Part shown: in pieces, positions 11 to 40,145 of the stretch
Layout: each line of letters opens with the position of its first letter
Numbering within the stretch: the stretch's first letter is position 1
DNA from: a virus
Length of the DNA stretch: 40,145 nucleotides
Reading direction: 5' to 3' (one strand)
IMG/VR virus record: IMGVR_UViG_3300005582_000030
Span: 1 to 40,145 of that record
The notes under the pieces: model-generated
Seen by the model: only the letters and a program-made list of their open reading frames with translations
Databases searched by the model: none
Told to the model about the DNA's origin: nothing
Program-made: the position numbers and the translations under genes

Positions 11-1207
11 ATGTCACAAGAACTATTAGAAAGCCGCTGGGGCGAGACCAAAGAAGCATTGCTCGAAGGTTTGAACGGCTCAAAGCGCAACAGCATGGGT
101 GTTATCTTAGAAAACACTCGCAAGTACTTGAAGGAAAACGCTTCCGCAGGTTCAACAGCCGCTGGCAACATCGCAACATTAAACCGTGTGATTCTTCCAG
201 TTATTCGCCGTGTTATGCCAACCGTTATTGCTAACGAGTTGGTTGGTGTACAACCAATGACCGGTCCAGTGGGTCAAATCCACACTCTACGTGTACGTTA
301 TGCACAGAGTTTGACAGACACTTCTGCAGCCGCTACTTCTGTAACAGCTGGTCAAGAAGCATTGTCACCATTCACAATTGCCACAGCATACTCTACAGTT
401 CCTCAAGGTACTGCTACTGCTACCAACTACACAGGCGGTGCTACAGCTACTATGGAAGGTACTGGCGGTAAGCAAATTTCTGTGCAAATCTTGAAGCAAG
501 CTGTTGAAGCTCGCACACGCAAGTTGCAAGCACGTTGGACATTTGAATCTGCACAAGACGCACAAGCCATGCATGGTATTGACGTTGAAGCAGAAATCAT
601 GGCCGCACTTGCTCAAGAAATTACAGCTGAAATTGACCAAGAGATTCTTTTGAGTCTACGTTCATTGGCTGCAACTGAGTTCACATACAACCAAGCTACC
701 GTTTCAGGTACTGCTACATTCGTTGGTGACGAACACGCCGCATTGGCTGTTTTGATCAACCGTGTTGCTAACTTGATCGCCCAACGCACACGTCGTGGCG
801 CTGGTAACTACGCTGTTGTTTCTTCAGCTGCCTTGACAGTATTGCAAAGTGCTACAACCAGCGCATTTGCACGTACTACAGAAGGTACATTTGAAGCACC
901 TACAAACACCAAGTTTGTTGGTACATTGAACGGCGCTATGCGTGTGTTCGTTGACTCTTATGCAAGTGACACAACCCCAGTGTTGGTCGGCTACAAAGGT
1001 TCTTCAGAAGCAGACGCTCCAGCATTCTACTGCCCATACATTCCTTTGATGTCTTCAGGCGTTGTGTTGGATCCAAGCACATTCGAACCAGTCGTGTCAT
1101 TCATGACACGTTATGGTTACATCGAGTTGACAAACACTGCATCAAGCTTCGGCAATGCTGGTGACTATGTTGGCGAGATCGCTGTGTCTAATCTTTCATT
1201 CTCCTAA
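11..1207 (+). CDS. gp23: Major capsid protein, T4 gp23 family
   Basis: This protein builds the icosahedral head lattice. Residues 59-98 carry the family's most conserved stretch: RVILPVIRRVMPTVIANE followed by GVQPMTGPVGQIHTLR, close to the T4 form RRAIPNLIAFDICGVQPMNSPTG. At 398 residues it is much shorter than T4 gp23 (521), as in many marine relatives. A candidate prohead-protease site, YLKE|N, ends at residue 42, just before the conserved core, so the first 42 residues are probably removed during head maturation. The start is fixed by GGAGA at positions 1-5. The gene is followed at once by a strong terminator. Genes 20-22 would be expected to the left of the window. Confidence 0.96.
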   Translation: MSQELLESRWGETKEALLEGLNGSKRNSMGVILENTRKYLKENASAGSTAAGNIATLNRVILPVIRRVMPTVIANELVGVQPMTGPVGQIHTLRVRYAQSLTDTSAAATSVTAGQEALSPFTIATAYSTVPQGTATATNYTGGATATMEGTGGKQISVQILKQAVEARTRKLQARWTFESAQDAQAMHGIDVEAEIMAALAQEITAEIDQEILLSLRSLAATEFTYNQATVSGTATFVGDEHAALAVLINRVANLIAQRTRRGAGNYAVVSSAALTVLQSATTSAFARTTEGTFEAPTNTKFVGTLNGAMRVFVDSYASDTTPVLVGYKGSSEADAPAFYCPYIPLMSSGVVLDPSTFEPVVSFMTRYGYIELTNTASSFGNAGDYVGEIAVSNLSFS

Positions 1208-1266: not shown

Positions 1267-2415
1267 CTATATTTTGTACCAGGCTAGATATTTTACAATT
1301 TTTTCAGTAACACTAGCCCAATCTCCTCTTGTGGGTTGTCTAAACAATCTAGCACTAGAATACCAAGGGCTAGAATCTCTATCCAGTAACCAGCGCCAGT
1401 CTGTGGCAAAAGCATTGAGCATGACCCATACAGGGCGGCCCAGGGCACCGGCCAAGTGAGTGATAGCAGTATCCACACTAACAATGACATCTAGATGCAT
1501 CATCAAGGCAGCTGTGTCGGCAAAACTGCTGATTGACCCTGGCCAAAGTCTAAGTCCAGCGTCGGCTAGTGCTTGCTCTTCGTCGGGGGTGGCATCCACT
1601 TGTAAACTAACCCATTCATATTCAGGATGGCTCTGGATCATGGACAGCACCTGATCAAACGGCACACCTTTGTGTTGATTGAGCCAGGCATCTCTTCGAC
1701 CACTCCAGGAAATTCCCACACGCATTTTGTATTTGTGTCCCAGTCGATCTTGCCACTGTTTCATCAACTCAGGGTTAGCGTTCATGTAACTTTGTATCTT
1801 GGGCAAGTTATCTAGCGTGACACCAAGTATGCCTGGAATGCTCATGATAGGAACCCAGTAATCAAATTCACCCATGTCGGTGCTATATCCTGCAACTTGC
1901 TGTATAATGTCACTGGTGTTTAACAATGGAATCAGTCCGTCTGTGACTTGCAGTTTGACCCGGGCACCCATCAGGTGTAGATTGTAAACAAATCGCACAA
2001 ACTGAACACAGTCACCGTGGCCTTGCTCGCCAACTACTAGAATAGTCTTGTCTCGGAGATCTTCGCCACGCCAGCGTGGTTGACTAAATTTAGGCTCTGA
2101 TCCAACAAGATGTTCATAGTTCCATCGAGATTCATAAGCAGGCCAACCACGCTGGTAGTCACCACTCAACAAATAACTCACGGCCAAATTAAACTGTGCA
2201 GTCACATTGTTTGGTTCCAACAGTGTGGCATATTGAAGAAACGGTATAGCTCGTTTTGGGTGTCCACATTCACGCATGACATTGCCATAGTTGTTGAATG
2301 CCGCAGCCGAATCAGGATCTTGTACAAATGCCATGGCATAACATTGTAATGCTTGTTCGGGGTTGCCGTCGGCTCTGTGCTGGTTACCAGCTTCAATTAG
2401 TTCATTAGTATTCAT
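1267..2415 (-). CDS. TPR-glycosyltransferase fusion (GT9-like C-terminal domain)
   Basis: A two-part protein. Residues 3 to about 105 form three tetratricopeptide repeats, for example GNPEQALQCYAMAFVQDPDS. From about residue 120 to the end there is a Rossmann-type domain beginning KTILVVGEQGHGD, with the nucleotide-sugar-binding signature SVDTAITHLAGALGRPVW near residues 312-330, typical of heptosyltransferase-like GT9 enzymes. It probably transfers a sugar to a phage structural protein or a host surface glycan; the acceptor is not visible. It is encoded opposite to its neighbours. The TAAATA core ends five bases before the ATG, leaving no room for a Shine-Dalgarno site. The first TPR begins at residue 3, so a much later start is unlikely. 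Confidence 0.85.
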   Translation of the reverse strand: MNTNELIEAGNQHRADGNPEQALQCYAMAFVQDPDSAAAFNNYGNVMRECGHPKRAIPFLQYATLLEPNNVTAQFNLAVSYLLSGDYQRGWPAYESRWNYEHLVGSEPKFSQPRWRGEDLRDKTILVVGEQGHGDCVQFVRFVYNLHLMGARVKLQVTDGLIPLLNTSDIIQQVAGYSTDMGEFDYWVPIMSIPGILGVTLDNLPKIQSYMNANPELMKQWQDRLGHKYKMRVGISWSGRRDAWLNQHKGVPFDQVLSMIQSHPEYEWVSLQVDATPDEEQALADAGLRLWPGSISSFADTAALMMHLDVIVSVDTAITHLAGALGRPVWVMLNAFATDWRWLLDRDSSPWYSSARLFRQPTRGDWASVTEKIVKYLAWYKI

Positions 2416-2420
2416 AAGGA

Positions 2421-2428
2421 TATTTACG
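2421..2428 (-). promoter_or_regulatory. Late promoter motif CGTAAATA at the glycosyltransferase start
   Basis: On the - strand CGTAAATA is followed by TCCTT and then the ATG at 2415. T4 late transcription starts about six bases after this element, so the mRNA should begin at or next to the A of the start codon. Confidence 0.6.
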
Positions 2429-2456
2429 CTCCAGGCGAGTACTATTTTACATTTTC

Positions 2457-2464
2457 GCTAAATA
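2457..2464 (+). promoter_or_regulatory. Late promoter motif GCTAAATA before the adhesin region
   Basis: It matches the TAAATA core of T4 late promoters (TATAAATA). It lies 91 bases before the ATG at 2556, the longest leader in the window. The stretch between holds a weak hairpin (ATGCGG at 2489-2494 with CCGCGT) and an AAGGAGA ribosome site at 2542-2548. Confidence 0.6.
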
Positions 2465-2555
2465 CTTGTCAACACAATAGGGTGTTTTATGCGGCGATTT
2501 AACCCACCGCGTAGCGACTAGAACTCGCATCGGACTTCTTTAAGGAGAAAACAAA

Positions 2556-3305
2556 ATGGGTCGTCCTCTAAAAATACAAAAATCATCAACTGGATCAGGC
2601 AACGGCGGCGCAGCCGTCTCGGTTGACCTTGGCTTTCCTAACTTCAATAGTTTAACAAACCCGGTTTTCAACAGCCCGGTTCAAACTCTAAACGGCACTC
2701 AATATCTTGGTGTTGTTGGCGGCGCAGGTCCTACAGATACCCCTTCTGCAACCAATCCACGTGTTGATGTCACTGTGAACATTGCCAACCCTTCGGGCTC
2801 GGGAATTGGTGTGGCACAAGGCTATATCATCCGTCAAAAAGGTTCTCGCAAATACCTAGTGGGTGATGTAACCGGAGTCAACGACGGAAGTTTTGTTGTT
2901 GGCCAGGCCTATCAAATTGTGTCTGTGGGCACTACTGATTGGACAGCTGCTGGCGCACCCGGTAACTTTGGTGTAGGCACTGTGTTCACTGCCAGTTCAG
3001 TTGGTGGAGCAGGTTCGGGCACTGCTAATTCTGTAGGTGTGTGTGTTTTGACAAATTCTGCAACACCAACAGTGGGATTGATGAGCATAAGCTACATTGA
3101 TGACACTTCATCTGAAGTGTTTATTTCCAAGTTGTCCAACAAATTCTTGTTGGGCTTTGAAGGCGGAAATGGATTCACTGCTGCTGAAGTTGTTGCTGAC
3201 ACACGTCAAGTGGCCAACTTCTTCACAGACGAAGGCACAGTTATCAAGTCAGGTACTGCACAAACCACTATCAACGTGGCATTGATACAGAACGTTACTT
3301 CTTAA
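2556..3305 (+). CDS. Putative virion structural protein
   Basis: The 249-residue protein begins MGRPLKIQKSS, a start I associate with uncharacterised virion proteins of T4-like marine phages. It is rich in Gly, Ser, Thr and Val with little charge, as expected for a beta-rich surface protein. Residues 115 to about 160 look like an inserted module (VGQAYQIVSVGTTDW ... GTVFTASSVGGAGSGTA) of a kind found inside many phage fibre and baseplate proteins. The start is supported by AAGGAGA seven bases upstream. It opens the adhesin cluster after the long leader. Head decoration or fibre accessory are both possible; neither is proven. Confidence 0.6.
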   Translation: MGRPLKIQKSSTGSGNGGAAVSVDLGFPNFNSLTNPVFNSPVQTLNGTQYLGVVGGAGPTDTPSATNPRVDVTVNIANPSGSGIGVAQGYIIRQKGSRKYLVGDVTGVNDGSFVVGQAYQIVSVGTTDWTAAGAPGNFGVGTVFTASSVGGAGSGTANSVGVCVLTNSATPTVGLMSISYIDDTSSEVFISKLSNKFLLGFEGGNGFTAAEVVADTRQVANFFTDEGTVIKSGTAQTTINVALIQNVTS

Positions 3306-3323
3306 TTTATCAAGTGACCGCGT

Positions 3324-3353
3324 CCTCCCAGCTACATACTGGGAGGATTTTTT
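3324..3353 (+). promoter_or_regulatory. Hairpin covering the ribosome site of the next gene; also terminator-like
   Basis: CCTCCCAG (3324-3331) pairs perfectly with CTGGGAGG (3339-3346) and is followed by ATTTTTT and then the ATG at 3354. The 3' arm is the only good Shine-Dalgarno sequence (GGGAGG) for the next gene. The hairpin therefore both looks like an intrinsic terminator and hides the ribosome site. The loop side contains GCTACATA (3331-3338), one base different from the GCTAAATA late motif seen elsewhere. Confidence 0.75.
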
Positions 3354-3941
3354 ATGGGCCCAGCTTTTGTACTTGGTAACGGCATAAGCCGACAACAAAT
3401 TGATTTAAACTTGCTAAAAACGCTTGGGCGTGTGTACGGCTGTAATGCTATCTATCGAGAGTTTGAGCCTGATGTGTTGATCAGCACAGATTTACCCATA
3501 AGCGAACGCATTCAGCACGAGGGCTACGGCCAAACCCATACTCATTATACTCGCAAGCCCCTGCCAAATTCTGGATCAATGCGTATAAGTCAACAGTATT
3601 TTGGCTACAGTTCTGGGCCGGCAGCAGTGGGGCAAGCGGCACTGGATGGCGCAAGAGCAATCTATTTGATAGGGTTTGACATGGGACCAAATCGCACCGG
3701 TAGATTCAACAACATCTATGCTGACACAGAATTTTACAAAAAGAGTTCGGCTAATCCTACATTTACAGGCAACTGGGTGCGACAAATCAAGCAAATAGCC
3801 AAGGACTTTCCCAAAGCAAGTTTTTTTCGTGTGGTCGGTGACACCACAGCAGATTTGTCAGATCTTCGGTCCATAGCCAACATGGCACACATGCCCGTCG
3901 CAGACTTTCAAAACCGTATAAATAACACAAAGGAACTCTAA
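3354..3941 (+). CDS. Conserved phage protein, possible MptE/DUF115-like Rossmann fold
   Basis: The 195-residue protein starts with a short beta-strand and glycine turn (FVLGNGISRQQIDL), then VYGCNAIYREFEPDVLISTD, and later GARAIYLIGFDMGP near the middle. This layout, a GNGxS turn, a YGCNAI strand and a second GFD strand, recalls the Rossmann-like MptE/DUF115 group found near glycosylation genes. I cannot assign a reaction. Its stop codon abuts the ATG of the next fibre gene, and a perfect late promoter lies inside its last codons. Its own ribosome site is buried in the preceding hairpin, which may keep it silent unless transcription starts locally. Confidence 0.6.
   Translation: MGPAFVLGNGISRQQIDLNLLKTLGRVYGCNAIYREFEPDVLISTDLPISERIQHEGYGQTHTHYTRKPLPNSGSMRISQQYFGYSSGPAAVGQAALDGARAIYLIGFDMGPNRTGRFNNIYADTEFYKKSSANPTFTGNWVRQIKQIAKDFPKASFFRVVGDTTADLSDLRSIANMAHMPVADFQNRINNTKEL
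3917..3924 (+). promoter_or_regulatory. Late promoter, exact T4 consensus TATAAATA
   Basis: TATAAATA lies inside the 3' end of the preceding gene, 17 bases before the ATG at 3942, with AAAGGAA (3929-3935) as the ribosome site. It is the only copy in the window that matches the full T4 octamer. Confidence 0.8.
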
Positions 3942-29196: not shown

Positions 29197-32100
29197 ATGG
29201 CTCTAGTATCACCAGGCGTAGAAGTAACAGTAATTGACGAGAGTCAATATATCCCTTCAGCCGTCAACACAGTACCTTACTTTGTGGTTGCCACAGCACA
29301 AAACAAAGTATCCAGCGACGGAGTAACCGTAGCAGCAGGTACACTTGCCGCTAATGCAAACAAAACATATTTAATCACCAGTCAGCGTGATTTGGCCGCC
29401 ACATTTGGTGTGCCATTCTTCTACAACACCACAACTGGCACTCCAATCAACGGCTACGAACTCAACGAGTATGGCTTACTAGCCGCTTACTCTGCATTGG
29501 GTGTTACCAACCGTGCGTATGTACAACGGGTTGATGTTGACCTAACTGAACTTACTGCAAGTTTGACCCGCCCAACTGGCGCTCCTGCTAATGGTGATTA
29601 CTGGTTGGATACCACAGTCAGTACTTGGGGAATTTTTGAATGGGATCAAACTACCGCTACATTTACCAATGTAGAACCATTGCAGATCACTGACGCCACA
29701 GACACTGTGAGCGGCAACGATACAGTTGCAGGAAACACTCCCAAGGCCTCTATTGGTTCAATTGGTGATTATGCAGTGGTAGCAGTGGGCACGAATATTT
29801 TTGGCTATTACAAAAAATCCGACAATACCTGGAATCAGATTGGTAGCAATGCCTGGAAAACTTCATGGCCCACAATCACAGGATCTGCAGCTCCTACCAG
29901 CTTGACAGCAGGCAACGATATCTATATCAATGACACTTTGATCACTGTGACCACAGCCACTGTGGCAGGCCTGGCTGCCAACATCAACTCAGCTAGTATA
30001 ACAGGTGTTACTGCCACTGCCACAAACAATGTGTTGCGTATCTATGCAGATTCTACTGCGGCCAACGATAATTCAACACTGAGCAACAATGGTATTGTCA
30101 CAATTGATGCAGGCCCAGTGGGTGGTGGAGCCTTGCTCACTGCACTGGGTATCTCAGCAGGCGAGTATGCAGCTCCGGACTATGAACCAGCTTACAGTTA
30201 CGAACAGCCGCGCTGGAGAACCACAGACACTGACGGTGGTCGTCCAACAGGTTCTGTATGGCAAAACCTTTCCACAGCCAACAATGGTTTAAACTTGAGT
30301 TTCAAATCATACAGTGCCGCTTTAGGTACGTTTGTATCACAAACAGTGCCAGCCTACAGCAGTGACACACCTGCAATCTATGCTCTTGACCCTACCGGTG
30401 GCGGCAAGAATATTCCTGTAGGCACTAGTTTTGTGATCTACAATAGTTTTTTCTACTCAACCACTCCACTGACAACATTTGCATTTGATATTGTAAATCG
30501 TTATGCAACTGGCGCAACAGAAATTACAGGAACCACTGTGCCTGCATCATTCACCGTAGGCAATAGTTTTAGTGTCGTGGCCACTGCTGCTGGACAATCT
30601 ACTACCAATGCTGGAACCGCTACCATAGGTGGCACAGGCACTGTGGCAAATTTCGTTGCGGCTGTATCAGCCGCTAATGTTCCTTATGTGTCAGCCAGTG
30701 TGAACACCGCAGGCAATATTGTGTTTACACACAGTCAAGGTGGTACAATATTTTTGCAAAACATTTCAGGAACTCCTGTCACAGCTGCAGGATTTACTAC
30801 AAGCACAGACAAAGTACGTCAAAGTCCACTTAATTCAACCTTTTTGGTTTTGAGTAATTTTGTAAGTGATCCGTTGTTTACCTACACAGCTAGTTCAACA
30901 GCACCAGATCAAGATCCTGCAGATGGAAGATTGTGGTACTACAGTGCAGTTGACGAAGTAGACATCATGATCCAGGACAATGGCACCTGGCAAGGATACC
31001 AATTGGTGTCTAACGATGTTCGCGGCTATGATTTGACCTTGTGTAATGCTACTGGTCCTATTATTTCAGCCACAGCACCTACTACACAAACCAACACCGC
31101 TGAAAGTGACTTGGTCTACGGCGACTTGTGGGTAGACACATCTGATTTGGAAAACTACCCCAAGCTATATCGTTGGGAAAGCGTGAGTGGACTTGATCAA
31201 TGGGTAGAAATTGACACTACAGATCAGGTCACACAAAATGGTATCCTGTTTGCTGATGCACGATGGGCACCTAACGGCACAACAGATCCTGTGGCAGATC
31301 CGATTCCAAGCATTGAAGATCTACTGGAGAGTGATTATCTTGATCCAGATGCTCCTAACCCAGCATTGTATCCACAAGGCATGTTGTTGTTTAACACACG
31401 TCGTTCAGGCTACAATGTCAAGAGCTTCCAAAGCAGTTATTTCACAACCACTGCCACTGACTATGCTATTGATGCCTGGTCAGCCAGCCAGACCTATGGT
31501 GAAAATGAATTTGTAAGTTACAACAATGGCATCTACGTGTGTATCTTGGCTCCTACTGCCAATCAGAATCCCAGCAATGGCACATACTGGGCCTTGATCA
31601 ATTTGAACACCTGGCTCAGCACCAGTGGCAATAGAGACGACGGCGCCATGTGGTCAGGTCGCTTGGCACAACGTCAGTTGATCATTCAAGCACTCAAGTC
31701 AGGTATTGACACCAGCGTCACAGCACGTGAAGAACAAACACAGTTCAACATTATTGCAACACCTGCTTATCCAGAATTGACACCAAACATGATTGCACTC
31801 AGCAATGAGCGCAACAACACCTTGTTTGTTGTGGGTGACACACCAATGCGTCTAGGACCAGATGGCAACAGCTTAGTAGCGTTTGCTACAGACAACAATG
31901 GCCTGGGACAACCCAACGGCGATGGAAATTCAGCAACCAGCAACTATTGCGGCGTGTTCTATCCAAGTTGCCAGACCACTGATCTTGGTGGAAACACAGT
32001 TGTTCAACCTCCAAGCCACATGATGGTTCGCACAATCCTACGCAGTGATGCCGCAAGTTACCCATGGTTGGCGCCAGCAGGCACACGTCGTGGTGTAATT

Positions 32101-32607
32101 GACAATGCAGCCTCAATTGGTTATATTGATGCCGCAACAGGTGAGTTCAACCAAATTGGTGTGAGTCAGTCAGTACGTGATATCTTGTATGAGCGCAACA
32201 TCAACCCAATTACATTCATCCCAGGTATTGGTATCACTAACTTTGGTAACAAGACAAGCACTATAACTACCACAGCCTTGGATCGCATCAACGTGGCACG
32301 ATTGGTGGCATTCTTGCGTGGACGCCTGGAAGAGATTGGCAAACTGTACTTGTTTGAACCCAACGACACAATCACACGCAATGAAATCACCAACACTTGC
32401 AACAGCTTGATGATTGACTTGATTGCCAAACGTGCGATTTATGACTACTTGGTGGTTTGTGATTTGAGCAACAACACACCAGCACGTATCGATCGTAACG
32501 AACTGTGGGTTGATATTGCCATAGAACCAGTGAAAGCGGTGGAATTTATCTACATTCCGTTGCGTATCAAGAACACTGGTGAAATCGCCGGAGGCGCTGG
32601 AGTATAA
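29197..32607 (+). CDS. gp18: Tail sheath protein, T4 gp18 family, enlarged
   Basis: gp18 forms the contractile sheath. The N-terminus (MALVSPGVEVTVIDESQYI) and the C-terminal 300 residues (LFVVGDTPMRLGPDG, FIPGIGITNFGNKT, RLVAFLRGRLEEIGKLYLFE, WVDIAIEPVKAVEFIYIPLR) are typical. At 1,136 residues it is far longer than T4 gp18 (659). The extra middle holds several Trp/Tyr turn modules: GDYWLDTT near 131, DGRLWYYSAVDEVDIM near 577, GDLWVDTSDLENYPKLYRW near 642. There is also a segment near 760-808 (WSASQTYGENEFVSYNNGIY ... YWALINLNTW) resembling a small carbohydrate-binding module. These are probably displayed on the sheath surface. The frame is unbroken. Confidence 0.93.
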   Translation: MALVSPGVEVTVIDESQYIPSAVNTVPYFVVATAQNKVSSDGVTVAAGTLAANANKTYLITSQRDLAATFGVPFFYNTTTGTPINGYELNEYGLLAAYSALGVTNRAYVQRVDVDLTELTASLTRPTGAPANGDYWLDTTVSTWGIFEWDQTTATFTNVEPLQITDATDTVSGNDTVAGNTPKASIGSIGDYAVVAVGTNIFGYYKKSDNTWNQIGSNAWKTSWPTITGSAAPTSLTAGNDIYINDTLITVTTATVAGLAANINSASITGVTATATNNVLRIYADSTAANDNSTLSNNGIVTIDAGPVGGGALLTALGISAGEYAAPDYEPAYSYEQPRWRTTDTDGGRPTGSVWQNLSTANNGLNLSFKSYSAALGTFVSQTVPAYSSDTPAIYALDPTGGGKNIPVGTSFVIYNSFFYSTTPLTTFAFDIVNRYATGATEITGTTVPASFTVGNSFSVVATAAGQSTTNAGTATIGGTGTVANFVAAVSAANVPYVSASVNTAGNIVFTHSQGGTIFLQNISGTPVTAAGFTTSTDKVRQSPLNSTFLVLSNFVSDPLFTYTASSTAPDQDPADGRLWYYSAVDEVDIMIQDNGTWQGYQLVSNDVRGYDLTLCNATGPIISATAPTTQTNTAESDLVYGDLWVDTSDLENYPKLYRWESVSGLDQWVEIDTTDQVTQNGILFADARWAPNGTTDPVADPIPSIEDLLESDYLDPDAPNPALYPQGMLLFNTRRSGYNVKSFQSSYFTTTATDYAIDAWSASQTYGENEFVSYNNGIYVCILAPTANQNPSNGTYWALINLNTWLSTSGNRDDGAMWSGRLAQRQLIIQALKSGIDTSVTAREEQTQFNIIATPAYPELTPNMIALSNERNNTLFVVGDTPMRLGPDGNSLVAFATDNNGLGQPNGDGNSATSNYCGVFYPSCQTTDLGGNTVVQPPSHMMVRTILRSDAASYPWLAPAGTRRGVIDNAASIGYIDAATGEFNQIGVSQSVRDILYERNINPITFIPGIGITNFGNKTSTITTTALDRINVARLVAFLRGRLEEIGKLYLFEPNDTITRNEITNTCNSLMIDLIAKRAIYDYLVVCDLSNNTPARIDRNELWVDIAIEPVKAVEFIYIPLRIKNTGEIAGGAGV

Positions 32608-34466: not shown

Positions 34467-34841
34467 ATGTCTACAGTTAATGATACCAACTACCGAATTG
34501 ACCAAACGGTAAGAGTTTTTGATACCTTTTACGACTATGATGTTGACATTCCTGTGGGCGAATATGATGTGGTCAACAGTTATTTTCGATCAATAATGAC
34601 TACCAAGCAAGCAGCAGATAACTTTACTGTGAGCTTGTTCAAAGTAGCCGAAGATACCAAAATTCCAGCCCTGACACTGTTACAGACTTTTCAAGCCAGC
34701 GGCGGCGGAGTTGGCAATTCAATGAGTATAAACTTGAACATGGCCTACTATCTCAACAGCATTCGCAACAGGGCCACTTTGCTAGGCGTGGGCGTGGCTG
34801 TGATACCAAACTATTATGCAGCCAGAAACGTGGTGCAGTAA
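34467..34841 (+). CDS. Conserved hypothetical, probable structural protein
   Basis: The 124-residue protein begins MSTVNDTNYRIDQTVRVFDT. It has Tyr-rich strands (DTFYDYDVDIPVGEYDVVNS) and an alpha/beta tail (MAYYLNSIRNRATLLGVGVA). No family is recognised. It sits between the tube-like protein and gp4/gp50, overlapping the latter's start by one base (TAATG), so it is probably made with virion assembly proteins. Confidence 0.55.
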   Translation: MSTVNDTNYRIDQTVRVFDTFYDYDVDIPVGEYDVVNSYFRSIMTTKQAADNFTVSLFKVAEDTKIPALTLLQTFQASGGGVGNSMSINLNMAYYLNSIRNRATLLGVGVAVIPNYYAARNVVQ

Positions 34842-35272
34842 TGGCTCGTTGGGCACAGGGATACTATGACATTCTGAATCCTGCCAAGTACGTGGGCTCG
34901 GGCAAGCCAAGGTACAGATCTGGTTGGGAACTAAGCTTCATGCGCTTTTGTGATTCAAATGATGCTGTGCTGCAATGGGCCAGCGAAGCAGTACAAATAC
35001 CCTACAGACATCCATTAACTGGCAAGCAAACTGTGTATGTGCCAGACTTTTTGATCACTTATCGCACTCGCAACAACACCATGCGAGCTGAACTGATCGA
35101 AATCAAACCCAAAAAACAAAGTGTAATCGAGTCAAAGATGAACAGCCGTGATCGAGCTGTGGTGGCCATCAACTATGCCAAATGGCAGGCCGCAACCAAA
35201 TGGTGTCAACGCCAAGGACTCACATTCAGAGTGGTCACAGAACAGGACATGTTTCACAACGGTCGAGCCTAG
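34841..35272 (+). CDS. gp4: Head completion protein, T4 gp4 (gp50) family
   Basis: T4 gp4 acts at the end of DNA packaging so that the tail can join. The 143-residue protein has the family start YYDILNPAKYVGSGKPRYRS, then the nuclease-like pattern E30 (SGWELSFMRF), PD at 68-69 (VYVPDFLITY) and E87-x-K89 (ELIEIKPKK), which is a PD-(D/E)xK core of TnsA type. The length matches T4 gp4 (about 150). It begins on the last base of the previous stop codon. The active residues look intact, consistent with trimming of DNA ends, though that activity is inference. Confidence 0.85.
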   Translation: MARWAQGYYDILNPAKYVGSGKPRYRSGWELSFMRFCDSNDAVLQWASEAVQIPYRHPLTGKQTVYVPDFLITYRTRNNTMRAELIEIKPKKQSVIESKMNSRDRAVVAINYAKWQAATKWCQRQGLTFRVVTEQDMFHNGRA

Positions 35273-35287: not shown

Positions 35288-35794
35288 ATGACGAGAAAAC
35301 TTGAAGAACTGTTTGATCTCCCGCCTACTGAAGAAGAAGTAGACCTTGCTCTACCCGATCTTCCCACCAATAGACAAACCCTACAAGCACTAGACGAAGC
35401 CATTGACAAAGTTGATGGTGCGTTGCCTGCTGTGCGCGGACTTGAAGCGTCTGATGCTGAAATGGACGATCTCAGCGACCTAGCTAAATCCAGTTACAAA
35501 GATCTCATGGACTTGGGCATGCAAGTAGACAGTCGTTTTGCTAGCGAAATATTCTCAGTAGCATCAAATATGCTGGGGCATGCTATCACAGCAAAAACAG
35601 CCAAACTAGACAAAAAGCTCAAGATGATTGATCTGCAGATGAAGAAAATGCGCCTGGATCAACAGCAACAAGTGTTAGATTCAAAAGAAAACGAAGGCTT
35701 GGCCTCCACACAAACAGCACACGGAGTGGTTCTAAGCCGCAATGATTTGCTGGAACGTATTATTGGCAAAGGCCAAAACGCACAAAAAGAATAA
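35288..35794 (+). CDS. gp16: Small terminase subunit, T4 gp16-like
   Basis: gp16 recognises DNA and regulates the large terminase during packaging. The 168-residue protein starts MTRKLEELFDLPPTEEEVDL, a start I associate with gp16 of marine T4-like phages. It has an acidic N-terminal half, a central helical segment (SSYKDLMDLGMQVDSRFASE) and a strongly basic coiled region (KTAKLDKKLKMIDLQMKKMR). The length fits T4 gp16 (164). No ribosome site is present; a late promoter ends four bases upstream. The large terminase (gp17), which follows gp16 in T4, is not here, so the pair has been split. Confidence 0.8.
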   Translation: MTRKLEELFDLPPTEEEVDLALPDLPTNRQTLQALDEAIDKVDGALPAVRGLEASDAEMDDLSDLAKSSYKDLMDLGMQVDSRFASEIFSVASNMLGHAITAKTAKLDKKLKMIDLQMKKMRLDQQQQVLDSKENEGLASTQTAHGVVLSRNDLLERIIGKGQNAQKE

Positions 35795-35815: not shown

Positions 35816-36421
35816 ATGAAACCATTTGCAAGATACCTAGCCGAAAGTGAACGTACATACAACTACCGTATCAAGGTAGTGGGTGATGTGCCCACAGGCT
35901 TTTTTAAAGAGCTTGAAGACAAGTGTGCTCAATTTGACATTGTCAAAATGTCAAATGCCAAGAGCACCCCAGTTCGCAAGCAGATTCCAGACTTCCCGGC
36001 ATTTCCCAACCAGTCAATGAACATTGTGGATGTGGAATTCAAGTACCCAGCTATTGAGCCACAGATCAAACAACTGGCACAAATACTGGGCCTGGATCCA
36101 AATCGTATTGTGATGAACACAACAGGGTACGAAGAAAGTTTGACAGACGAAGGCAACAAGATTGAAGATCAAAATAAAGATTTGTTAGATTCACCGTACC
36201 CTGCACCTGATGCTGAACAAAAAGCATTGAAGAAAGATTACGCAACTGGTCCTTATGACCATGAAGTTGTAAAGAACGCTTACAAGAGTAACTTCACAGT
36301 AGCTGGAGGAAAGACGCCCCCAGCAAAAACCACAAACGAATTGCCCATGGGTGACAAGAGTCCATTCAGCAATATCAAACGTCAACCCAAGCCAGCAACT
36401 GGCGCCCAACCTCGAGGATAA
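35816..36421 (+). CDS. Conserved phage protein with capsid-targeting-like N-terminus
   Basis: A 201-residue protein. Residues 1-10, MKPFARYLAE, resemble the T4 capsid-targeting peptide (MKTYQEFIAE) and end in an LxE prohead-protease site. After this is a compact alpha/beta part (YNYRIKVVGDVPTGFFKEL, FPAFPNQSMNIVDVEFKYPA, QLAQILGLDPNRIVMNTTGY). It ends with a polar tail rich in Lys, Asp and Pro. Similar proteins seem common in marine T4-like phages, but I know no function. The likely reading is a head-associated internal protein. It begins the cassette after gp16 with its own late promoter. Confidence 0.65.
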   Translation: MKPFARYLAESERTYNYRIKVVGDVPTGFFKELEDKCAQFDIVKMSNAKSTPVRKQIPDFPAFPNQSMNIVDVEFKYPAIEPQIKQLAQILGLDPNRIVMNTTGYEESLTDEGNKIEDQNKDLLDSPYPAPDAEQKALKKDYATGPYDHEVVKNAYKSNFTVAGGKTPPAKTTNELPMGDKSPFSNIKRQPKPATGAQPRG

Positions 36422-36426
36422 TCCAA

Positions 36427-38523
36427 ATGACATTTTTTTACGATTTAAACAAAAAGCTCGACTCTATTCGCGAGAAGCCAGAAGTCACACACGGTCAATT
36501 AAATGAACGTGACATGAGCCGTGCGGCCAAAGGCTATGAAAAGTATGGCAAACAAGGTATGGAGGCCTTGGCCAAGGCCGGACGTGAAGGCAAGGCGCTT
36601 GACCCAGTTCGCAACCGGTATGACAAATACGACGAAAGCCAACTCAATGAACTAAGTCCTGAACTGCTGAAGAGAGCAAGAGACAAAGCAGGTATGAAAT
36701 ATGCTGATGCTGACGACCGCCGAGATCAAAAAGCATCAGACAAATACAATAGACAAGATGACAAGTTCAACAGTGCCTTGCGTAAAAAACAAAAACAAAA
36801 AGACATGGACGAAGGCATGGGCGATGTAGTCAAGAAAATTGGCGGCATGGCCAAAACAGTCGGCAAGAAAATTGGCAAAGCTGTCACAGGTGGCAACGAT
36901 GTGGAACTGTTGATGCGTTTGCAAAAAGACATGGGTGTTCCACAAACTGGCATGAAGCCTGGTGCTGAACCTAATCCAAAACAAGTTAAAGAAAAAATGA
37001 ATCCTGCCAAGGCCAAGAGTTTTGCAGCATTGGCACCACCCAAAGACAAAATTACTTTTGCCGACAAGATTGCCGGCGCCAAAAAAGAAGTTGATGAGAT
37101 GTTGGGTGACGTGGCTGCTGAAGCAATGAAGTCAGCACTCAGCGGTGGCCAAAAGAAACTGGACAAGAACAACAACGGCCGACTAGATGCCAATGACTTT
37201 GCTATGCTCCGTAAAGGTGCAGGCAAACAAGAAACTGACGAAGGTTGGGACGACATGATGAAGGACACTGAGCGTCGTCGTAGCGCACCTAAAATTGGTT
37301 CTATCACACACGGCTCCAAGCACGATGTTGAAGAGATTCCAGGCGGTCGTAGAGTAACTCGCAGAGTTGATCCCAACACTGGTCACTCAGTTGGTGCAGA
37401 CGATGATGGTCCAGCTGACGGCGAAAAGCGTGGACGTGGTCGTCCAAAGGGCACCAAGGGTGCTATTGGTGCCAAAGGCCCAAGCGGTAAGTCAAAGTTA
37501 ATGAACAAAGAAGCCAGCCATGACGAGAATCCAAATATTGCCAAGGCCAAGGCCATTCTCAAGAAAGCTGGCTATACTGTTACCATGGACGGCGAAGAAG
37601 AGCTAGATGAAAAAGCAGTGAGCAAAAAACAACAACGCTTCATGGGCATGGTACATGCTACACAAAAGGGTGAAAAAGCCCCTTCAAAAGAAGTTGCCAA
37701 GGTAGCCAAGAGCATGGGCAAGAAAGATGCAGAAGATTTTGCATCAACCAAACACAAGGGCTTGCCTGAAAAGAAAAAAACAGAAGGCAAGAAGAAAGAA
37801 AAAACTGAAGAGCAAGGCGGCACAGGTACACCCACAGCCTCAAGTGGTTTCAGCTATGGCAAAGGCATTTATGATTCACTAAATCGTGAACTAGAAGGCA
37901 TGATTTCTGAAGGCATGAACATAAACATGAGCATGAACTCAGACGCCAATGGCGGCCCAAGCAAGAGCTTGACTGTTACTGCCACTGACGAAGATGCAAT
38001 AAAATTAAGTCAACTGTTGAAGAGTGCAGGGCTTGGAGGTGGCAATGATCAAGGCTACGGCGGATCTGGTTATCAATCAGCCTGCGGCTGTGGCACACCT
38101 GACTGCTCATGTGGCGATCAAGAAATGGACGAAGCCTATGGCGACAATGCAGTGAGCCAAAATGCTCCAGACTATCCCACAAACACCGAAACTGCTGAAG
38201 ACAATTTTGAATATGCAGGTGGTTTGAACAAGCCCAAGTCAACTGGTCAGACAACTGTGCCAGTGATCGCCAGCCAAGAAGAACGCCAAGAAAGCTATGC
38301 TGCCGAAGAAGAAGATGCCATCAAGCGCATGATGGAAATGGCCGGCGTTAAAGAAGCCAAGAAGCCTGATGCTAATAAAGATGGTATTCCAGATTACGCT
38401 CAAGACGGAAAAGGTTCGAAAGACCTTGGAAAAGCAAAAGACAAAGAGAAAAAAGTAGACGAAGGTATCCTTGCCTCTACTGCTAATCTTTGGAAAGAAT
38501 ACAAAGGCCAATACGGAGTTTAA
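36427..38523 (+). CDS. Charged mosaic head or DNA-associated protein with AT-hook
   Basis: A 698-residue, very Lys/Glu/Asp/Gly-rich, mostly disordered protein. In order: LNE|R near residue 28; a Lys-rich region (KKIGGMAKTVGKKIGKAVTG); a calcium-loop-like DKNNNGRLDAND at 246-257; an AT-hook RGRGRPKG at 335-342; a DUF3008-like block at about 396-450 (SKKQQRFMGMVHATQKGEKA, DFASTKHKGLPEKK); a Cys cluster CGCGTPDCSCG near 553; and a second acidic loop DANKDGIPDYAQD near 648. Short sites such as MDE|G, LDE|K, ISE|G and VDE|G recur along the chain. An internal head protein that binds DNA and may be cut during maturation is the best guess; this is inference. GAGGAT precedes the start. Confidence 0.65.
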   Translation: MTFFYDLNKKLDSIREKPEVTHGQLNERDMSRAAKGYEKYGKQGMEALAKAGREGKALDPVRNRYDKYDESQLNELSPELLKRARDKAGMKYADADDRRDQKASDKYNRQDDKFNSALRKKQKQKDMDEGMGDVVKKIGGMAKTVGKKIGKAVTGGNDVELLMRLQKDMGVPQTGMKPGAEPNPKQVKEKMNPAKAKSFAALAPPKDKITFADKIAGAKKEVDEMLGDVAAEAMKSALSGGQKKLDKNNNGRLDANDFAMLRKGAGKQETDEGWDDMMKDTERRRSAPKIGSITHGSKHDVEEIPGGRRVTRRVDPNTGHSVGADDDGPADGEKRGRGRPKGTKGAIGAKGPSGKSKLMNKEASHDENPNIAKAKAILKKAGYTVTMDGEEELDEKAVSKKQQRFMGMVHATQKGEKAPSKEVAKVAKSMGKKDAEDFASTKHKGLPEKKKTEGKKKEKTEEQGGTGTPTASSGFSYGKGIYDSLNRELEGMISEGMNINMSMNSDANGGPSKSLTVTATDEDAIKLSQLLKSAGLGGGNDQGYGGSGYQSACGCGTPDCSCGDQEMDEAYGDNAVSQNAPDYPTNTETAEDNFEYAGGLNKPKSTGQTTVPVIASQEERQESYAAEEEDAIKRMMEMAGVKEAKKPDANKDGIPDYAQDGKGSKDLGKAKDKEKKVDEGILASTANLWKEYKGQYGV

Positions 38524-38524
38524 T

Positions 38525-38695
38525 ATGACCAAGAAACTAAATGAATCAGTGTTGACAACACCACCTGTGATGAATCCTCACAGTCCAGCCAACAATGGCT
38601 ACAAGCAACAGCCAGTCGAAATTCCTGGTGTGTTATATCAAACACGCGAGTTGTTTCAGCCGGTGATTGCTATCCCGCCTGAGGACAAGAAATAA
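38525..38695 (+). CDS. Small hypothetical protein
   Basis: A 56-residue protein, MTKKLNESVLTTPPVMNP to the C-terminal PPEDKK. The ATG at 38525 is chosen because it directly follows the previous stop and is preceded by GGAG. An upstream in-frame ATG at 38471 would run inside the preceding gene. It has an LNE|S site at residues 5-7, like the neighbouring proteins. It is Pro-rich and probably unstructured. Its stop overlaps the next ATG. Confidence 0.5.
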   Translation: MTKKLNESVLTTPPVMNPHSPANNGYKQQPVEIPGVLYQTRELFQPVIAIPPEDKK

Positions 38696-39030
38696 TGGCC
38701 GCAATTCAAGTCGTAAACGCTGTGAGTAACACAGCCTGGACAACAGACAAGGTAGAAATTGCCACAACTCTTGCCAACGTAACATTTCAGGTTAGTGCTG
38801 TACAATTAACGTACTCACAGGCCAACGGCGTTGTAGCAAACGCTACAATGACCACTGATGTTGGCAATCTTTATGCCAATGCTATTGTTGTTCCTGGCAA
38901 CTCAGTTCAGCAATACTATGTTGGTGCTGGTAACTATCTCAATATTGTTACTGGTACTGCATTCAGCGCCACTGCAATTGGCTCTGCAACTTCTGCTACC
39001 GCTGGTGAGAATGGCGTAGGCAACGGCTAA
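38695..39030 (+). CDS. Small beta-rich structural protein
   Basis: The 111-residue protein is Ala/Val/Thr/Asn-rich (TTLANVTFQVSAVQLTYSQA, NAIVVPGNSVQQYYVGAGNY) and ends in a Gly/Asn tail. The alternating pattern suggests a small beta-sandwich, as in head-decoration or fibre-cap proteins. No family is recognised. It overlaps both neighbours by one base, so it is translated with the surrounding cassette. Confidence 0.5.
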   Translation: MAAIQVVNAVSNTAWTTDKVEIATTLANVTFQVSAVQLTYSQANGVVANATMTTDVGNLYANAIVVPGNSVQQYYVGAGNYLNIVTGTAFSATAIGSATSATAGENGVGNG

Positions 39031-39395
39031 TGCGAGCGCAAGAGTTCATTGCAGAAGACACAGTTGGCAAGATTAGCAAACGCAATCAAAATGCCACTGT
39101 GGGTCTCAACAAGTTTAGAGATTCTCAGTTTGCAGACCGTGTGTATGAACTCAACAGAATCATGATGGCCGTGGCATCTACTGATGGTACATTTGTCCCG
39201 GAAATTGATAGCGAAAGCTGGGCAGGACGTAACAATGTAGCCGCACCATATACCCCTGAAGAACAGAACATGTTGAAAAAAGCCTATCAAGCAGTTGGCA
39301 GCCATCACGAAGATCTAAATCAAGGTGATCTTAACTCACAAGAACATCCAGCAGTAAACACCACAAGCCCCATGCAGGCGTTCAAAGGTTACTGA
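39030..39395 (+). CDS. Putative packaged internal protein A with capsid-targeting N-terminus
   Basis: The 121-residue protein starts MRAQEFIAEDTVGKISKRNQ. EFIAE is identical to the core of the T4 internal-protein targeting peptide (MKTYQEFIAE) and gives an IAE|D cut site after residue 9. The middle is helical (LNKFRDSQFADRVYELNRIM). The end, VNTTSPMQAFKGY, is nearly the same as the end of the next gene. It is therefore likely to be loaded into the prohead; the effect inside the host is unknown. Start and stop overlap neighbours (TAATG and TGATG). Confidence 0.6.
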   Translation: MRAQEFIAEDTVGKISKRNQNATVGLNKFRDSQFADRVYELNRIMMAVASTDGTFVPEIDSESWAGRNNVAAPYTPEEQNMLKKAYQAVGSHHEDLNQGDLNSQEHPAVNTTSPMQAFKGY

Positions 39396-39775
39396 TGCGA
39401 GCTCGTGAGTTCATCACTGAACAAGCAACTTTGCCTCCAGAGCAAGCAGATCCCATGAATCATGTGTTTACGTTGCCTGGAGTACAGTCCAGCGACCCTT
39501 ATCAAATATATCGCTTGGGTGTGGCCATGGCTCGTGCCCGAAGTGATGCAGGAACAGATGGCCTCACTGATAAATTACCTGCATGGTCAGCAGAAGCTGC
39601 CTTTGGTGAAGACGCTGTGATTGCAGGGTTTGATGCTGGCGTCGAGACAGTTATTGATCAAGCACTAAGCATGGCCGGCTTGCCTGGCAAAAAAGTACAA
39701 ATAAGCTCGCCAAACAGCCTAGAGCCTGGCTCAGTAAATCACACCAGCCCTGTCAAGCCGTTTAACGGTTATTGA
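39395..39775 (+). CDS. Putative packaged internal protein B with capsid-targeting N-terminus
   Basis: The 126-residue protein starts MRAREFITEQATLPPEQADP, with an ITE|Q cut site after residue 9, and ends VNHTSPVKPFNGY. Between these ends its sequence (FTLPGVQSSDPYQIYRLGVA, WSAEAAFGEDAVIAGFDAGV) shows no obvious similarity to the previous protein. Matching ends around different middles suggest a shared targeting frame carrying different cargo. It is translationally coupled to the previous gene. Confidence 0.6.
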   Translation: MRAREFITEQATLPPEQADPMNHVFTLPGVQSSDPYQIYRLGVAMARARSDAGTDGLTDKLPAWSAEAAFGEDAVIAGFDAGVETVIDQALSMAGLPGKKVQISSPNSLEPGSVNHTSPVKPFNGY

Positions 39776-39813: not shown

Positions 39814-40145
39814 ATGGCGAACCCACCCCCACCATACGACAACATAACCGGCATTTCACGTGCCGCAATGAAGGACAACGCCCAAGTTACCTTGGCTGAG
39901 TACGACGGAAATGCTAGACCAGGCGAACTTGTGGTAGATCAGACCACAAGCATTGTGTATGTGGGCAACGCTCTAGGCGACCTAACAGCAGTGGCCACAC
40001 CAGGTGGTGCAACAACCTGGGCACTGTTGAATGACAAAAACAATGCTAGTGGACCAGCCAGTATTGCTCTGGGAACCAACGCTGGTACCAGTCAAGGAAA
40101 TACTGCCATAGCCATTGGATATGGAACAGCGTATTCTGGCCAAAG
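39814..40145 (+). CDS. Tail fibre or adhesin, partial at the right edge
   Basis: The frame stays open to the end of the window (110 codons read). It starts MANPPPPYDNITGISRAAMK, continues NARPGELVVDQTTSIVYVGN, a display-type N-terminus found in other T4-like fibre genes, and then enters YadA-head-like units (SIALGTNAGTSQGNTA, IAIGYGTAYSGQ) of the same 16-residue kind as in the giant fibre. A second adhesin locus therefore begins here, separate from the 2.5-22.4 kb cluster. The start is defined by the hairpin promoter rather than by a ribosome site. Confidence 0.75.
   Translation, partial: MANPPPPYDNITGISRAAMKDNAQVTLAEYDGNARPGELVVDQTTSIVYVGNALGDLTAVATPGGATTWALLNDKNNASGPASIALGTNAGTSQGNTAIAIGYGTAYSGQ

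Follow-up and report, generated by a model that had tools for sequence, protein, structure and literature searches.

The question raised by this locus is whether the proteins encoded directly behind gp16 are carried inside the phage head, what signal would bring them there, and what they might do if they are delivered with the DNA. The window analysed here is a virus record of 40,145 bases. It opens with the gene for a gp23-type major capsid protein, behind which lie genes for tail fibres, sheath, tube and head closure. The capsid protein is 61-66% identical to its counterparts in large phages that have been cultured, among them Phosso, PA5oct and GAP32, and its YLKE|NAS sequence (E42) lies at about what we take, by analogy with T4, to be the position of the gp23 maturation cut. 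Because related IMG/VR contigs extend up to 364 kb, the window is a piece of a larger genome, that of an uncultured T4-like jumbo myovirus.

Some further features of the window lie outside the block considered below. Between the capsid and fibre genes (1267-3941), a 382-aa ORF on the minus strand is accompanied by a 195-aa protein that weakly matches sialyltransferase family phrog_4603. The tail sheath protein (29197-32607) is unusually long at 1136 aa and has phrog_10581 as its best match. At 39814-40143, a gene with YadA-head-like repeats, probably encoding a fibre or adhesin, runs off the window end.

A gene block behind gp16

The genes and leader segments on which our analysis is based are as follows.

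11..1207, plus strand: gp23-like major capsid protein (phrog_138, E=3.8e-98)
34841..35272, plus strand: gp4-like head completion/closure protein, anchoring the block on its upstream side (phrog_218, E=2.8e-39)
35288..35794, plus strand: probable gp16 (small terminase), upstream anchor, by position (phrog_16202, function not known)
35816..36421, plus strand: p201, 201 aa, with the T4-like 10-residue leader MKPFARYLAE|S (ORF and homologues)
35816..35845, plus strand: p201 leader, codons 1-10 (K2, F4, Y7, L8 and E10 conserved)
36427..38523, plus strand: p698, 698 aa, modular, AT-hook/DUF3008/EF-hand-like ([LIVM]xE sites at module joints)
36427..36507, plus strand: p698 leader MTFFYDLNKKLDSIREKPEVTHGQLNE|R, 27 residues (conserved LNE/LTE/LEE end)
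38525..38695, plus strand: p56, 56 aa, membership doubtful (LNE|S not conserved)
38695..39030, plus strand: p111, syntenic neighbour without a leader (synteny and sequence)
39030..39395, plus strand: p121, 121 aa, with the 9-residue leader MRAQEFIAE|D, paralogue of p126 (ORF and alignment)
39030..39056, plus strand: p121 leader (R2, E5, F6 and E9 fixed in 59/59)
39395..39775, plus strand: p126, 126 aa, with the 9-residue leader MRAREFITE|Q, paralogue of p121 (ORF and alignment)
39395..39421, plus strand: p126 leader (R2, A3, F6 and E9 fixed in 57/57)

The first-pass annotation had proposed that these genes form a block after gp16, and the wider comparison bears this out, as the order gp4, gp16 and then the cassette is syntenic in about 80 IMG/VR loci. 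The name gp16 is itself probable, being drawn from position and from that annotation. In one distant group of loci (L053-L080) the p126 homologue lies upstream of the p121 homologue, and the order of the two is thus swapped. A second family with T4-like leaders (MKSFRDYLAE, MKTLKEYITE and MKSLKDYLAE; about 150-285 aa) is found near the p201/p121 block in L176, L183, L207, L217, L239 and L271, and is not represented in the window.

The starts MKPFARYLAE, MRAQEFIAE and MRAREFITE had been likened to the T4 leader MKTYQEFIAE. We confirmed both the ORFs and the T4 starts: in the T4 record, MKTYQEFIAE|A opens both ipII and ipIII, and the start of ipI is MKTFKEFTSTTTPVSTITEA. A leader expression, M[KR]x{2,7}[FY][ILV]xE, which was defined after the leaders had been seen, fits only three of the 32 window genes (p201, p121 and p126). 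Shuffling residues 2-31 within each protein 20,000 times gave a maximum of two matches, and three were reached 0 times. Given that p121 and p126 are paralogues, the three matches amount to about two independent cases. When applied to the T4 ip region, the same expression picks out ipII and ipIII only, among 25 genes.

The remaining small genes of the block are different in this respect. The sequence of p111 carries no leader. For p56, a cut site at LNE|S had been suggested, and we rejected this candidate on finding that the site is not conserved: the nearest relatives have LNE, LKE or IKE before the Ser, and others have YNEN, FTAG or EVAAE. In AlphaFold models of the tagged proteins, the first ten residues are of low confidence (mean pLDDT of 60 for p201 and 48 for p126), with better-modelled domains downstream. 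For p201, the predicted structure is a ferredoxin-like domain at residues 14-102 followed by a helical or disordered tail.

Conservation, processing and virion evidence

Experiments on T4 IPIII have assigned targeting mainly to residues 4 and 7, and processing to residues 8 and 10 (PMC9026906). The leader of p201 follows this rule, with an aromatic residue at positions 4 and 7, an aliphatic residue at 8 and Glu at 10. Among 56 distinct p201 sequences, F4 is kept in 53 and Y7, L8 and E10 in all 56, and positions 3, 5, 6 and 9 vary. The leaders of p121 and p126 are one residue shorter than that of T4 and have no aromatic residue matching T4 Tyr4. In these proteins (59 and 57 distinct sequences, respectively) F6 and E9 never vary, only [ILVM] is found at position 7, and positions 4 and 8 are free. 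Leader codons vary synonymously while the residues remain fixed (for example, AGA or CGN for Arg and GAG or GAA for Glu in p121), and therefore selection acts on the peptide.

The AT-hook, DUF3008 and EF-hand-like modules of p698 reshuffle between relatives behind a conserved leader. This leader, MTFFYDLNKKLDSI...QLNE|R, is about 27 residues long and was missed in the first-pass annotation; nearly all homologues keep a leader ending in LNE, LTE or LEE even though the body behind it differs. The DUF3008 module is preceded by [LIVM]xE in 29 of 29 cases (PIAE, ELDE, QVDE and PVTE, for example), with differences at the other residues. Within p698, [LIVM]DE is enriched (5 versus 0.7 expected), as is [LIVM][DNTKSQ]E[GAKSN] (7 versus 1.6), and the count of [LI]xE by itself shows no enrichment (6 versus 4.1). 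These sequence patterns make it very probable that p698 is the fourth of the core proteins, its leader being longer and ending in LNE, and we infer a polyprotein of the core that the prohead protease cuts.

A gp21-family prohead protease (PF03420) is present in 12 of 18 related contigs, and the window begins past that locus. In a 300-kb relative (G009) the gene order is portal-like, small gp67-like, a 278-aa protein, gp21, scaffold-like and gp23, where all names except gp21 and gp23 are given by position.

Cultured phages provide evidence from virions. In PA5oct, EST35_0202 is a distant p201 homologue (28% identical) that occupies the same place in the order after gp4 and gp16, and both EST35_0202 and the adjoining EST35_0203 are marked as structural by ESI-MS/MS, a designation that does not distinguish head from tail. 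EST35_0202 starts with MKSFRDYYDAS, in which F4 and Y7 are kept and E10 is absent, as is also the case for the p201 homologue of Phosso (hhalign E=7.5e-10), which starts with MKNFYEYLSS. By analogy, this pattern fits the separation of targeting from processing in T4. Because EST35_0202 is detected in virions and does not have the cutting Glu, cutting appears not to be needed for p201 to be in the virion.

A PA5oct-wide comparison gave no enrichment of leader-like starts among virion-detected proteins (6/90 versus 18/301, p=0.49), and the subset with Lys, Arg, His or Asn at residue 2, which was picked after inspection, gave p=0.052. This test is of little value, since an unrelated control position gave p=0.006. 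Our searches of cultured phages found no relative of p121 and none of L181, a member of the wider p126-type family. Elsewhere in PA5oct (L296; 260677-262300 of the record, minus strand), three adjacent genes start with MRLNEINLIE, MKILEFNLTE and MKLSEICILE, and the first two are marked by ESI-MS/MS; these might constitute an independent leader cassette.

We consider it probable that p201, p121 and p126 belong to the internal (core) proteins of the head and that their T4-type leaders target them to the capsid, where they would be cut and packaged. The capsid-targeting reading of the leaders is well supported, indirectly, by the T4 rule, the residue-specific conservation, the movable tag described below, the protease of the clade and the one virion-detected homologue. 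During prohead assembly, the leader aromatics would dock each protein on the scaffold core, and a T4-type prohead protease would then cut after the conserved Glu at [LIV]xE, with p698 presumably cut at several internal [LIVM]xE sites. The mature proteins would stay in the head with the DNA, might be ejected with it, and could then act in the host.

Core proteins or injected effectors

The first-pass annotation had put forward uncharacterized members of the cassette as candidates for anti-defence effectors, which is unsupported for the proteins of the window. The leader type is common to the T4 internal proteins, among them the GmrSD inhibitor IPI (PMC3012670). Furthermore, some proteins that carry the leader elsewhere in relatives give weak matches to GNAT acetyltransferase, PARP-like and (metallo)peptidase domains, and acetyltransferase, PARP-like and metallopeptidase domains are among the kinds reported in injected polyvalent phage proteins (PMC7824862). 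However, none of these matches reaches the curated cut-off, and all were obtained in genomes other than that of the window.

In contrast to what might be expected of such effectors, p201, p121 and p126 keep their position in almost every relative, and p121 is often 80-94% identical. T4-type internal proteins are described as basic, whereas the full-length pI values are 5.3 for p121 and 4.7 for p126 (7.7 for p201). None of p201, p121 and p126 has a match in the PADLOC defence library, and comparison with Pfam and PHROG gave no meaningful family match for them. Foldseek comparison gave ferredoxin-like or ribosomal S6-like similarity for p201 (TMq of about 0.3), which indicates no function, and nothing for p126. 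Given this conserved position, the lack of basic character, the absence of defence matches and the absence of an informative fold for p201 and p126, core internal-head proteins are the likelier assignment, and we regard it as unlikely that the tagged proteins of the window are injected to counter host defences in the manner of T4 IPI.

An anti-defence role is plausible only for the variable tagged proteins that relatives encode elsewhere in their genomes, and even for these only in view of weak domain matches. The leader analysis separates a core cargo (p201, p121/p126 and p698) from a variable cargo, and the anti-restriction precedent of T4 (IPI and GmrSD) applies better, as a lead, to the latter.

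A movable leader and its known counterparts

The pattern MRAxEF[IV]xE was run at the DNA level on viral contigs, with a scrambled pattern of equal specificity as the control. It occurs in at least 119 stretches of viral contigs, versus 4 for the scrambled control in the whole collection, and the four control ORFs are only 36-77 residues long and spurious. Among the matches listed, 124 of 125 tag occurrences open an ORF that has at least 50 residues or runs off the contig. The 125 tagged ORFs among these matches form 27 body clusters by BLAST single linkage (65, 19, 7, 6 and 3 members, plus 22 singletons), which is an upper bound on the number of kinds in the sample because remote homology may escape single linkage. 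At 21 of the loci listed there are at least three tagged ORFs, several of them in tandem. A Pfam search of the first ten tagged bodies returned essentially nothing.

The tail sheath of the clade is present in 19 of 33 tagged contigs, and gp21/gp23 in only 4-5 of 18, most of these contigs being fragments. A single tagged contig carries a podovirus portal; its tagged ORF, at 28 aa, was rejected as spurious. The spread of the leader differs between large relatives. G009 has eight leader-like ORFs, versus a shuffle mean of 0.3 and maximum of 3, and five MRAxEF[ILV]xE starts lie outside its cassette. A 364-kb relative (G007) has only two leader matches, both within the cassette, and therefore a wide cargo is not universal. 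In this phage group the leader probably serves as a packaging tag of general use, attached to many bodies of distinct sequence.

It is quite improbable that the common N-terminus merely reflects shared ancestry of p121 and p126, as part of a folded protein and not as a tag. These two proteins are indeed homologous and have the C-terminal sequence SPxxxFxGY in common, but the leader opens all of the body clusters noted above (with the same proviso on remote homologies), the searches used showed no relationship of p201 or p698 to p121/p126, and free and fixed leader positions alternate as in the T4 rule. That the leader is instead a conserved DNA or RNA element for translation coupling at stop-start junctions, with no peptide signal, can be given almost no credence: 119 of the 125 tagged ORFs listed have an upstream stop that overlaps or lies within about 12 bases (a loose test without a background rate), but the codons vary synonymously behind fixed residues and hardly any matches are found for a scrambled pattern of equal specificity.

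If the leader is a capsid-targeting peptide, as we favour, a broader proposal can be made, although we advance it tentatively and stop short of preferring it. Freshwater T4-like jumbo phages might use a nine-residue derivative of the T4 leader to mark proteins for export throughout the genome, with dozens of different proteins, some having transferase- or peptidase-like domains, loaded into the head for injection, such that the tag alone would list unknown injected proteins. A searchable, conserved leader in an abundant uncultured clade would reduce the identification of proteins carried into the cell to a sequence search, and the proteins so listed would be candidates for testing against host defences. 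Capsid-targeting leaders are already known in T4 and P1, and, to our knowledge, work on the T4 head leaders has largely concerned a small number of T-even phage proteins. In the open-licence papers searched, we found no description of a shortened T4-type leader that is movable between proteins throughout a clade of uncultured jumbo phages.

Among known systems, EST35_0202 and EST35_0203 of PA5oct, a Pseudomonas jumbo phage of the Arenbergviridae, resemble the block in gene order, and EST35_0203 has a leader-like start ending in VKE|S, whereas EST35_0202 does not have the L8/E10 cut residues. The T4 proteins gp22, gp67 and gp68 are prohead core proteins that are cut to peptides. Like them, p698 has features expected of a cut core protein, namely a leader and several [LIVM]xE sites at module joints; unlike them, it has AT-hook, DUF3008 and EF-hand-like segments that reshuffle, and no sequence similarity to them was found. 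For P1 DarB, a short N-terminal stretch is enough to direct the protein and a reporter into the phage head, although the leader is different, with targeting at residues 6-10 within the first 30, and the head assembly is unrelated (PMC9024508).

Another close parallel is with T4 IPII and IPIII, which are likewise small proteins with an N-terminal segment of 9-10 residues, a basic residue 2, and an aromatic and an aliphatic residue at -3 and -2 from the terminal Glu, in a clade that has a gp21-type protease. Against MKTYQEFIAE, p201 agrees at positions 4, 7, 8 and 10, and p121 has QEFIAE in common. In contrast, no similarity of the bodies to IPI, IPII or IPIII was found with Pfam and PHROG, and p121 and p126 are acidic and conserved. 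Moreover, unlike in T4, the tag is found here on more than two dozen sequence clusters and in tandem runs.
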